A DNA stretch of 7,617 nt, from positions 1 to 7,617 of the forward strand of contig JAJRTK010000432.1 in assembly GCA_024278345.1 (NCBI GenBank), read 5' to 3'. The notes under the pieces were generated by a model. The model made no database searches. It saw only the letters and a program-made list of their open reading frames with translations, and was not told the DNA's origin. A program made the position numbers and the translations under genes. This stretch comes from a bacterium. GTDB taxonomy: Bacteria > CSSED10-310 > JAJRTK01. Of the stretch, positions 3,165 to 7,272 are shown piece by piece. Each line of letters opens with the position of its first letter. The stretch's first letter is position 1.

Positions 3165-3173
3165 GTTGTTGAA
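3165..3173 (+). repeat. left 9-bp direct repeat (putative target-site duplication)
   Basis: gttgttgaa, followed by gg of the left inverted repeat. It is identical to 3375-3383 in the same orientation, as expected for a target-site duplication. Confidence 0.55.
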
Positions 3174-3374
3174 GGCTCCGTCCATCGTTTCGGCCACCAT
3201 ACGACGCGGAGCGTCGTACATAAATGTGGGTCCAGGGAGCGTGCTCCCTGGCGTGGGTCTGGGAGCAGTGCTCCCAGCGGAGGTCCGGAGGCGGCGCCTC
3301 CGCCGGGTTCCAGGGCCGGAGGCCCCGGGGTAGCACCCGGATTCTACGAGGTGGCCGAGACGATGGACGAGGCC
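3174..3374. mobile_element. 201-bp MITE-like element with terminal inverted repeats
   Basis: The left end (3174-3197) and the reverse complement of the right end (3351-3374) match at 21 of 24 positions, sharing cgtccatcgt and tcggccac. Perfect 9-bp direct repeats (gttgttgaa) lie immediately outside both ends. Inverted ends inside direct flanks are the signature of transposition by a DDE-type transposase. The element is too short to encode one, and open frames through it are translations of hairpin DNA. The interior is almost entirely the hairpin array described separately. An alternative is a REP-type palindromic cassette whose flanking match is chance, but nine identical bases exactly at both borders argue against that. 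No autonomous parent element is in the window. Confidence 0.6.
3200..3330. repeat. tandem array of short-loop hairpins with differing arms
   Basis: Five hairpins follow one another. They are tacgacgc-gga-gcgtcgta (3200-3218), ccagggagc-gt-gctccctgg (3232-3251), ctgggagc-agt-gctcccag (3259-3277), cggaggc-ggc-gcctccg (3286-3302) and gggcc-gga-ggccc (3313-3325; an A/C mismatch then two further pairs extend it to 3310-3328). Stems are 5-9 perfect base pairs and loops are 2-3 nt. The last four are spaced 25-27 bp apart behind a shared linker: tgtgggt, cgtgggt, cggaggt and ccgggtt. The arms differ between units, but each arm matches its partner, so pairing is conserved rather than sequence. Confidence 0.8.
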
Positions 3375-3383: not shown

Positions 3384-3575
3384 GGAACGTCCTCTACCCA
3401 TCCATGGCCCGATACAAAGCTGGCGTCAACCGCAAGTCCAATAGCGGCGAGACAAGACCCGGCTCAAGATCGGTCACCCGCTGCACCCCTAGAAACTCTG
3501 CCTGTATCATGCTTTCGAGGAGTCTCCGGACATGATGGACGTAGGCAGCGAGACCATGAACTTGGATGACGCGGC

Positions 3576-3616
3576 TATCCACGTAACGCGGAACAGAACA
3601 GGAAAAGAAAAGGGGA
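3576..3616. repeat. copy B of the 40-bp dispersed intergenic motif
   Basis: It starts tatccacgtaacgcggaaca and continues in an A/G-rich tract ending agggga. It matches 2535-2574 at roughly four of five positions in the same orientation. On the minus strand the tract reads as T/C-rich sequence just after the dyad ggac-tag-gtcc. That could add to transcription termination after the amidase gene. Confidence 0.5.
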
Positions 3617-3768: not shown

Positions 3769-3804
3769 CACCGGAGGTGCGTAGGGGCGGGTTGCAACCC
3801 GCCC
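3769..3804. repeat. palindromic intergenic repeat with a perfect 20-bp dyad
   Basis: gggcgggttgcaacccgccc (3785-3804) is a perfect 20-bp palindrome. Five bases before it lies a small hairpin cacc-gga-ggtg (3769-3779) with the same gga loop as two hairpins in the 3200-3330 array. It begins about 50 nt past the amidase stop codon. No T-run follows on either strand, so it looks like a REP-type element rather than a terminator. Confidence 0.6.
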
Positions 3805-3855: not shown

Positions 3856-6800
3856 TCAGACGCCGTCGATTCGGGATGAGATTTCCGGGATAAGGCATAC
3901 CACCATCAGGAAGACCAGGCTCCAAGGCCACCAGGGAAGAGCCGGTACCGACCGAGTTGAAGGCGTCCCCGTCGCTGTCGGCGTCAGAGTCGCCGCCGCG
4001 GGAGATGGAGTTGCCGTGGCCGAGGCCCCTGGCTGCGGGGTACGTGTCCGCGTGGGGGTCAGAGTCGCTCCCGGAGGGGATGGAATCGCCGTCTGGGATG
4101 CAGTAGCGCCGGGCGGCGTCGAGGTGGGAGTCGCCGACGGTGTGAAACCCATCGCCGTTGGCGTCACCGTAGATGTCCAGGTTCTCGTCGGCGGCAAAGT
4201 CCCGGTGGGTGTCCGCGTGGCGGTTCCGGTCCAAGTAGGCGTCCGCGTGGCGGTTCCGGTCCAAGTGGGCGTCCGTGTCGCCGTCCGCGTGGCGGTTCCG
4301 GTCCCAGTAGGCGTCGCCGTCACCGTTGGCGTCGGGAGTGGAGGGGCGAGGAACGAAACGACTCGGGTCATCACTTCCCCCCGCTTCGACGCCGAATAGA
4401 TGGTCTCGAAGGGAAAACCGATATTGACCACGCGATAGGTGCCAGTATCCACCTGAACACAAGCGCCAAAGGAGGTTCCGGTATAGGTCATGCACCTGGA
4501 ACCGGAGCCCAGGGGATCGATGACATCGGGATAGTTGACATCGTAGGTCCCGTGAGTGCCGTCGTCGAACGCCACGGCCGAAACCCCGTCGAGGATCGAC
4601 CCTGCCTCTCCTTCCGCCGCATAGACTCCGGCGTCGTCCTGGACATAGGCACTCCAGAGCCAGCTATTGTAAAACGCCTGGTCCGAGGCGCTGCCCAGGT
4701 TGTCGAGGTCCCAGCCGATCTCGGCGCCCGTGACCAGCAGGTTGCCTCCCGCCTGGAGCCAGTTCTGGACCAGGCTCTGCTCCGAACTGCTGAAGGTCTC
4801 GTCGGCGGTCGATTCCTCCCCCAGAATCCAGAAGGCCGCCCTGTAAACGGCGGTGGAAAGCAAAGGTCTCCCCGCCAACACCGCCTCGTTGGAGGCGGAA
4901 TCGAAGGAGAGATCCAGCCCCCGCATCGCCTCCGCATGCTGGATCACATAGTCGAAGCTGTTCATCCGGTCCAGGAACATCCGCTGCACCGTGCCGCCTA
5001 GATCGGCTTCGTACTGGTTCACCAAGAGGTATTTGTCCAGGCGGTCGAAGCCGTTGACCAGGAGCAGCCTGGATTGCGTTCCTGCCGCGGGCAGCTTGAC
5101 GGCCAGCGTCTCGGTGGGAAACGAGACGCCACCTTCGTTGACGGCGGCAACCCGAAGGTAGACGATGCTCCCGGGGACGAGTCCGAAAATGTCCAGCGCC
5201 GTGCCCGTTGCCGGCGTTCCCTCGTCAAAACCGTAGCCATTGTCACTTCGATAGACCAGGTACGACTGGGCCGGATCGCCGTACAACCCGCCCGCGTCGG
5301 TCACCGGCGGCTCCCAGGTGACCCGGACCGACGACGTCCCCGTGGCGTGGGCCTCCGGCGCCCGGGGCGGCTCGGGTAATAGCTTCACCGGAATCCCGTC
5401 CCGTTGCGCGTAGTACTTCACCATCCCCTGGTAGATGGCTCGGGCCAGGAGGTTGCGCCACCTGGGATCCTTCATCTGTTCGGCGTCGGTGGCGTTGTCG
5501 TGGAAGGCCACTTCCAGCAGGGCCGATGGCATTTCGTTGTTGTAGGCGGGATTGATCTCCCCGAAGTAGGCGGACCGGTAGCCTCGATTGGCCCAACCTG
5601 CCTCCCAGCCTTGGCGGAAGTCGTTGATCATCTCGTCGTGGATCAGGTTCATGAGCTCCACCGAGCCGGGGGCCGCCTGGGTCGTGTCGTAGGAGCCATC
5701 GGGAGGATTCGAGCTGTAGATGTAGGAGCTGGTGCCTCGAACGGTTCCGTCGAAGGCGTTGGAGTGCCAGGAGACGTACAGGGAATCGTCGAGGCCGGCG
5801 AAGTTCTCCCACGCGGCGTATTTCGAGCGGGCGGTCACGTCGCCGGCATAGACGGAGCTGGGTGCTCCCAGGAACTGGGTGTGGGTCTTGGCGCCTTCCT
5901 CCCACCGTGGATGGCCGCTCACGACACCGGTGTATGCGCCCAGGACGTCGCCCATGCCACCGCCGAACCGGACGGCGTCCGCCGAAACCGTCTCACCCAG
6001 TTCCGCCGAATCGTTGGCCAGCACCACGGCGCCGCGGTTGGAGTCGGAACCGGCCTTGAAATAGAAGCGGCCCAGGAAGACCCAGGTCCAGCCGTGGCGC
6101 TCCTGGTTGACGCGGAAATGCGACTCGCCCCCTGCGTGGAGGACGATGTAGTGGGCGTCGCTGGCGCGGTTCGCCCCGTCCCGCGTGTAGGAGACATAGA
6201 CGTTGTAGAACCCGTCGGCGGGCAGGTTGGGTGTCCAGGTCGCCCGGGCCGTCTCCGTGGCCGCCGTCTGGATCAGCCGCGCTGTCCCCCCGCTGAAGGG
6301 ATTCGTCCCGTTGGCGTACGGCGCCTGGAAGTTCAGGAAAGCGCTCTGCCCCGAATCCAGGAAGAGCGAGGGATCCCCGCTCTCCACGTAACTCCCGTTC
6401 CCGGGAAACGCCGCACCGTCCCCCTCGTCCACGATGACCATGTCGTTGTTGAGGTCGCTCTCCTTCACCGTGAAGAAGTCGGCGCCCGCGTTCCGCAGGT
6501 AGCGGAGCAGGTACTGGTCCGCACCCTCGGGGTTCACGAAATCCTCCACGATTCCGTTGGTAATGCCCCGCTGCGTATCCCAGCCCCGGGAACCGCCATA
6601 ATCAAGCCAACCGTGACACTGGCTGAAAAATATGAGCTTCCCGGTGAGCGCCCCTTGCGGCACACCGGCCGGCCGGCGATCCCGCCGCACCAGCGGTTTC
6701 CTGGAAATCCCCGCCTCCCCCGCTTCCTCTTTCCGCAAGACCGACGCGTCAAACTTCGGTAAGTACGAAGGCAAGGTCCGGTAAACGCCATCCGGATCCT

Positions 6801-7272
6801 CCAGCTCCCTGGCCACCACGTGAAACTCCCGAAGATCGGGCCACTCGTCGAAAGCCCCGATGACCTGCCAGCTCAGGTCCTCCAGGACTTCGTCGGTCAG
6901 CGCCCCTGACCGAAGGAACTCCCGGCCCAATCCAAGGCGAATCACCAGTGCCGGCCCCTGGAGAAAAACGCCGTCGAACTCCGCCGCACGCTCCCGGTGC
7001 GCCGCAAAAAAGGCCCCCGACGCCACGCGAAACAAACTCGGAACCAGCCCCTGGGCCCGCATGGCCACGGCGGTTTCCTCCGACGCACTCCATACCTTCC
7101 ACCCAGAACTCCCCACCCTCACCTTGGCACCTCCCGTCACAGCGGTCCTGTCAGCGACGCTCCCCGCCTCCACACCCGCACCAGCCAAGGCCACTCCCGC
7201 AAAAAGCCACCACCCCATTGCTCCCGCAAAGACCAGCCGCACCCTCTTTCCAAATCCGAAATAGAACCCCAT
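3856..7272 (-). CDS. secreted N-acetylmuramoyl-L-alanine amidase with golvesin-like insert, FN3, GATase-like domain and PT stalk
   Basis: This 1138-residue exported enzyme is predicted to cut the amide bond between MurNAc and L-Ala in peptidoglycan, using zinc. Residues 1-30 form a signal peptide (KRVRLVF...LFAGVALA). The Amidase_3 fold is split. The first half has SQCHG (H220) and GIVED (E243), and the second half has SWHSNA (H503) and LLEVAFHDN (E587), which match the family's two His and two Glu. Residues ~290-440 between them resemble a golvesin C-terminal/Xly-type binding domain (ATWTPNLPADGFYNVYVSYT, HYIVLHAGG, SADAVRFGG). A fibronectin type III domain follows (~634-728), then a glutamine-amidotransferase-like domain (~736-975). 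Its expected elbow reads TGAEIG, with Glu in place of Cys, so it is probably non-catalytic. A Pro/Thr stalk (979-1106) and one hydrophobic segment (1112-1129) end the protein. The ATG has GAGGG 6 nt upstream. Confidence 0.9.
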   Translation of the reverse strand: MGFYFGFGKRVRLVFAGAMGWWLFAGVALAGAGVEAGSVADRTAVTGGAKVRVGSSGWKVWSASEETAVAMRAQGLVPSLFRVASGAFFAAHRERAAEFDGVFLQGPALVIRLGLGREFLRSGALTDEVLEDLSWQVIGAFDEWPDLREFHVVARELEDPDGVYRTLPSYLPKFDASVLRKEEAGEAGISRKPLVRRDRRPAGVPQGALTGKLIFFSQCHGWLDYGGSRGWDTQRGITNGIVEDFVNPEGADQYLLRYLRNAGADFFTVKESDLNNDMVIVDEGDGAAFPGNGSYVESGDPSLFLDSGQSAFLNFQAPYANGTNPFSGGTARLIQTAATETARATWTPNLPADGFYNVYVSYTRDGANRASDAHYIVLHAGGESHFRVNQERHGWTWVFLGRFYFKAGSDSNRGAVVLANDSAELGETVSADAVRFGGGMGDVLGAYTGVVSGHPRWEEGAKTHTQFLGAPSSVYAGDVTARSKYAAWENFAGLDDSLYVSWHSNAFDGTVRGTSSYIYSSNPPDGSYDTTQAAPGSVELMNLIHDEMINDFRQGWEAGWANRGYRSAYFGEINPAYNNEMPSALLEVAFHDNATDAEQMKDPRWRNLLARAIYQGMVKYYAQRDGIPVKLLPEPPRAPEAHATGTSSVRVTWEPPVTDAGGLYGDPAQSYLVYRSDNGYGFDEGTPATGTALDIFGLVPGSIVYLRVAAVNEGGVSFPTETLAVKLPAAGTQSRLLLVNGFDRLDKYLLVNQYEADLGGTVQRMFLDRMNSFDYVIQHAEAMRGLDLSFDSASNEAVLAGRPLLSTAVYRAAFWILGEESTADETFSSSEQSLVQNWLQAGGNLLVTGAEIGWDLDNLGSASDQAFYNSWLWSAYVQDDAGVYAAEGEAGSILDGVSAVAFDDGTHGTYDVNYPDVIDPLGSGSRCMTYTGTSFGACVQVDTGTYRVVNIGFPFETIYSASKRGEVMTRVVSFLAPPLPTPTVTATPTGTGTATRTATRTPTWTGTATRTPTWTGTATRTPTGTLPPTRTWTSTVTPTAMGFTPSATPTSTPPGATASQTAIPSPPGATLTPTRTRTPQPGASATATPSPAAATLTPTATGTPSTRSVPALPWWPWSLVFLMVVCLIPEISSRIDGV
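4211..4312 (-). repeat. 30-bp tandem repeat in the PT-stalk coding region
   Basis: gtccgcgtggcggttccggt plus ccaagtaggc forms a 30-bp unit at 4211-4240. It is repeated at 4241-4270 (one difference) and, after a 12-bp spacer, at 4283-4312 (one difference). The unit equals ten codons and encodes the repeated block TPTWTGTATR of the stalk. Near-identity at DNA level points to recent expansion or slippage. Because it is in frame, changes in copy number would only alter stalk length. Confidence 0.85.

Follow-up and report, generated by a model that had tools for sequence, protein, structure and literature searches.

A row of five hairpins forms the interior of a dispersed, MITE-like element in a candidate-phylum bacterium

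Introduction

QMITE2 of Coxiella burnetii has target-site duplications (TSDs) of 7-9 bp, terminal inverted repeats (TIRs) of 23-29 bp, a core of 113-145 bp and a very stable folded transcript (PMC10969869). The element reported here resembles QMITE2 in dimensions, but it differs in sequence and host, and also in its core, where five separate hairpins stand in a row. BOX of Streptococcus pneumoniae is likewise MITE-like, with a modular interior and TIRs that pair together in the fold; its boxB modules, however, are one sequence in variable copy number, whereas the present hairpins differ in stem sequence (PMC3049150). BrickBuilt of Porphyromonas gingivalis is also a MITE with a repeat array inside, but that array is a 23-nt minisatellite without spacers, and there are 19 copies per genome (PMC4596501). 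GTAG/CGTC REPs and REPINs share short stems, loops of 2-3 nt and alternative complementary stem residues with our hairpins, which differ in having neither the tag tetranucleotide nor alternating orientation and in being enclosed by TIRs with a TSD (PMC3733652; PMC3116915). A search of open papers found no description of this element. It is distinctive in that its hairpins have differing stems and in that its shell, but not its interior, is common to other genomes.

The hairpin array is the interior of a 201-bp element

The DNA analyzed here (the window, 7,617 nucleotides) belongs to a metagenome-assembled genome (MAG; G000) of 6.06 Mb in 550 contigs, from the phylum of Candidatus Schekmanbacteria. 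A first-pass annotation had reported a tandem array of hairpins at 3200-3330. All five hairpins are where it placed them and are more densely clustered than expected, with four perfect stems of at least 7 bp within 150 bp compared to at most 2 in any of 30 dinucleotide-shuffled versions of the window. The array is not the unit, however. The true unit is a MITE-like element at 3174-3374, whose enclosing TIRs and flanking direct repeat had been missed:

3165-3173, no strand: target-site duplication, left copy GTTGTTGAA; the same 9 bp stand at both outer edges
3174-3197, plus strand: left terminal inverted repeat TIR1, GGCTCCGTCCATCGTTTCGGCCAC; an inverted repeat with about 300 such ends in the genome
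3200-3218, no strand: hairpin 1, tacgacgc-GGA-gcgtcgta; 8-bp perfect stem, loop GGA
3232-3251, no strand: hairpin 2, ccagggagc-GT-gctccctgg; 9-bp perfect stem, loop dinucleotide very variable across copies
3259-3277, no strand: hairpin 3, ctgggagc-AGT-gctcccag; perfect, 9 bp if counted up to a 1-nt centre; in three pairs both sides have changed between copies
3286-3302, no strand: hairpin 4, cggaggc-GGC-gcctccg; perfect inverted repeat, 8 bp
3310-3328, no strand: hairpin 5, ccagggcc-GGA-ggccccgg; a single A.C mismatch; other copies close the loop with C-G or T-A
3351-3374, minus strand: right terminal inverted repeat TIR1 (imperfect, 24 bp), from the inverted repeat and the count of ends in the genome
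3375-3383, no strand: target-site duplication, right copy GTTGTTGAA

A repeat search gave the enclosing inverted repeat as 25 nt at 3174-3198 and 3350-3374, 88% complementary. At 201 bp the element has no room for a transposase gene, and together with the TIRs, the TSD and the dispersed copies described below this is the anatomy of a MITE. The hairpins are all in one orientation, separated by the linkers GTGGGTC, GTGGGTC, GGAGGTC and GGGTTC, and in the same repeat search only hairpins 2 and 3 were clearly alike (74% over 23 nt). An Rfam search returned 0 matches at gathering score, and in that sense the earlier remark that the array has no named family holds.

Copies are dispersed through the genome and were inserted

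To count copies, we used blastn and patterns of the element ends. At least 63 blastn matches to the element were present in the window's own genome (507 first-look candidates, 40 scored). The TIR pattern for ends of one subfamily (A; GGTCATGGTACCGG) matched 248 times, compared to 0 for a reversed-pattern control, and 52 ends of a second subfamily (B) were found when up to 2 mismatches were allowed, some of which are also A-like. We estimate about 140-290 elements, a range that reflects the many copies lying at contig ends, where one end often stands for one copy. Many copies are partial because the assembly breaks at them, and they help to explain the fragmentation of this MAG.

Just over half of the full-length copies (15 of 29) were flanked by a TSD with at most one mismatch, of 8 bp in nine cases and 9 bp in six, and the flanks of extracted copies were unrelated to one another. 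The clearest sign of real insertion is a copy (L274, contig C5) that splits an ISL3-type transposase gene and is bordered by a perfect 9-bp duplication, GTTCAAGCG; when its flanks are joined, a single reading frame runs through the insertion site. A plasmid search gave no match to the element and chance-level matches only to the TIR, and a search of IMG/VR gave none to TIR1.

The element is thus dispersed, inserting and non-coding, with a conserved fold of a TIR stem and five hairpins, and the window carries what is very probably one copy of a high-copy, mobile, non-autonomous MITE-like family. A role in transposition had been among the first guesses about the array. The fallback offered at that time, to be adopted if no further copies existed, was that these are chance palindromes in GC-rich DNA; with more than 100 copies, that condition fails. 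The G+C content is indeed high, but copies, TIRs, TSDs and shuffles refute this reading, whose probability we regard as negligible. The puzzling array is thereby explained as mobile DNA. The family is new, although selfish DNA of this kind is known, and its interior is modular to an unusual degree; a heavily amplified element is thus added to a candidate phylum.

The element is predicted to fold on both strands

Folding predictions for the whole element gave -135.6 kcal/mol for plus-strand RNA (z -9.7), with z of -8.3 for minus-strand RNA and -8.9 for DNA. In the predicted structure, the TIR stem closes a ring formed with the five hairpins. Hairpin 1 and the TIR stem are common to all three predictions, and the plus-strand RNA optimum merges hairpins 2 and 3 into a longer alternative.

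Such a strong predicted RNA fold on both strands raises the alternative that each site carries a functional structured RNA or an array of transcription terminators. Consistent with this, copies of subfamily A, and these alone, have a terminator-like hairpin 1 that carries a T6 tail when read on the minus strand. In addition, a small lipoprotein-like gene on the minus strand (ORF ending at 2776) has its probable start codon about 24 bp downstream of the window copy. However, the window copy has no such T-run, a search for a terminator-like site inside it found none, and copies occupy unrelated sites, one of them inside a gene. We therefore judge a site-by-site RNA or terminator function to be decidedly unlikely.

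Stems are held between copies and loops probably invert

We assessed pairing in hairpins 2-5 of 42 distinct copies by comparison with shuffles, a comparison whose significance is inflated by the relatedness of the copies. Standard pairs occupied 97.8% of stem cells versus 96.7% after shuffling. Two-sided changes were seen in 22 cells versus 6.8 +- 1.8 (0 of 500 shuffles as high), and four pairs showed such changes, a number reached in 21 of 500 shuffles; relatedness inflates both tests. The two-sided changes amount to about three independent events: a G-C to A-U change in hairpin 3 of L014, a change of two neighboring pairs of the same hairpin in L098, L085 and L231, and the pair that closes the loop of hairpin 5, which is T-A or C-G. 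This is modest but genuine covariation. The covariation first proposed for the array is thus present between copies; the differing stems within one copy, on which that proposal had relied, are not in themselves covariation and are weaker evidence for it, because homology is in doubt for most units and only hairpins 2 and 3 are clearly alike.

In a comparison of nearest copies that does not depend on counting pairs, stems differed by 0.66 per site, linkers by 1.44 and loops by 2.82, so that stems change 2-4 times less than linkers or loops. These rates indicate that the stems are held, with modest support from the compensated pairs. One-sided changes also occur, with broken cells in many pairs and several G-U pairs. 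Loops of the GNA type, which had been singled out as potentially stabilizing, are common (GGA, AGA) but are not a rule, since hairpin 2 has a highly variable 2-nt loop.

The states of that dinucleotide are many and include the inversion pairs TG/CA, GT/AC and GG/CC; taken alone, these could be chance because so many states occur. In hairpin 5 of L008, the loop is TCC where other copies have GGA, an exact inversion that involves three changes at once and leaves the stem intact. These changes probably reflect inversion of the loop by template switching or cruciform resolution. They suit the alternative that mutation bias alone, through template switching in quasi-palindromes, keeps the pairing with no selection on the fold. 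Against this, several copies retain broken or G-U pairs, which makes any correction incomplete at best, and we consider mutation bias alone the less probable account, though a credible one. For the folded core we favor a mixture in which palindrome-correcting mutation acts together with selection on the folded strand. Since the adjoining linkers change more than the stems do, selection is somewhat the likelier of the two. A folded single strand, either a transcript or DNA during replication or transposition, may be the form that is tolerated or needed, and template-switch repair would help by restoring palindromes and flipping loops. With the same hairpin at more than 100 sites, the genome offers natural replicates for separating selection on folding from palindrome-correcting mutation, including the apparent loop inversion. 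A census of 150 kb of unmasked DNA counted 137 hairpins versus about 79 after shuffling, with an excess of purine or pyrimidine triloops as well, although other repeats dominate these counts.

Hairpin modules recur in a second family

A second MITE-like family in the same genome is bounded by a different repeat, TIR2 (GGGTATCCACGYAAGGCGGGACA...), and contains a longer modular hairpin array (345 first-look candidates; L249-L273). The window holds a damaged copy at 2533-2735, of which a 90-bp module (2638-2729) recurs at more than 30 places with about 89-98% conservation. In other copies the first module is a related one, GTGGGTCCAGGGAGC-NN-GCTCCCTGG, with different hairpins after it; modules are therefore common to different shells. 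A hairpin of this family swaps its loop-closing pair in the same way as hairpin 5 (GGGGAT-GGA-ATCCCC and GGGGAC-GGA-GTCCCC), and a pattern search for hairpin Y of the family gave no matches. The core of the TIR1 element may be assembled from short hairpin modules through their duplication and exchange.

The TIR1 shell is shared with other genomes

The exact TIR is also present in two other MAGs: NC_groundwater_415 (G003/G042), a Candidatus Schekmanbacteria genome that shares its phylum with the window's genome, and "bacterium isolate Yes70-08" (G041), in whose 4.3 Mb there are 454 TIR1 ends. In a sample of 386 genomes, only the window's own and G003 had more than one TIR1 site, so the shell is patchily distributed. 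Shells in Yes70-08 had 8-bp duplications in the cases read by eye (TGATAACG in L112, CTAAATTC in L111), and their interiors are GTAG-flanked hairpin pairs, imperfect fold-backs of A/T-rich repeats, or nested elements. Interiors in G003 differ again, with total lengths of 81-231 bp.

The GTAG-flanked pairs inside TIR1 elements of Yes70-08 bear on a further alternative, that the hairpins are REP units (a REP/BIME cluster) moved by a REP-associated tyrosine transposase and merely captured in a TIR element. Stem length and the 2-3-nt loops also match GTAG-REPs (PMC3733652), and the window's genome has one RAYT-like Y1 gene, with GTAG hairpins inside it. However, none of the five hairpins has a GTAG or CGTC tag at its foot, the units stand in one orientation with GGTC-like linkers, and the sole Y1 gene (L168) is a weak partial match (E 9.7e-4) that is not flanked by array units. 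A REP origin thus appears improbable to us. Our preferred reading remains an element with its own TIRs. A bolder extension of it, which we think rather doubtful, is that, across distantly related bacteria, a transposase recognizes a conserved TIR shell of 23-24 bp, whereas the folded interior would be freely exchangeable; modules would be swapped within a genome, the shell would be re-filled with host-specific hairpins, and foldedness, but no particular sequence, would be selected.

An ISL3-type transposase is a candidate mover

We found no intact autonomous element with TIR1, and searches for transposases of the IS256, IS1595, IS1 and ISL3 types gave either none or genes without TIR1 at their flanks. 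What looked like a 1.1-kb TIR pair in Yes70-08 (L144) proved to be a composite of small elements rather than an autonomous one. In L125, an IS630-like ORF next to a TIR seems, from its sequence, to be a separate insertion. TIR1 does resemble an end, GGCTCTTCGCCATCTTTGAGGCC, that follows an ISL3-type transposase (3 of 2000 shuffles were as good). ISL3 elements make 8-bp TSDs. A search for ISL3 in Yes70-08 gave no match. A DDE transposase acting in trans and cutting at TIR1 would account for the copies, and because of the resemblance between ends and the fit of the duplication length (8 or 9 bp), the ISL3 family is our best, if tentative, guess from these sequences.

Other features of the window

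Three further features lie downstream of the element in window coordinates. A stray TIR2-like left end (GCTATCCACGTAACGCGGAACAGAACAGG) stands at 3574-3600 without its array. A GTAG-tagged palindrome, GTAGGGGCGGGTTGCAACCCGCCC, lies at 3781-3804, and the same type of palindrome occurs twice in frame in the only RAYT-like Y1 gene of the genome (L168, 1303-1425). Finally, the Golvesin_C / Amidase_3 / fn3 protein encoded at 3856-7272 on the minus strand has, near its C-terminus, a stretch rich in Thr and Pro (RTATRTPTWTG) that is encoded by a tandem repeat at 4160-4330.
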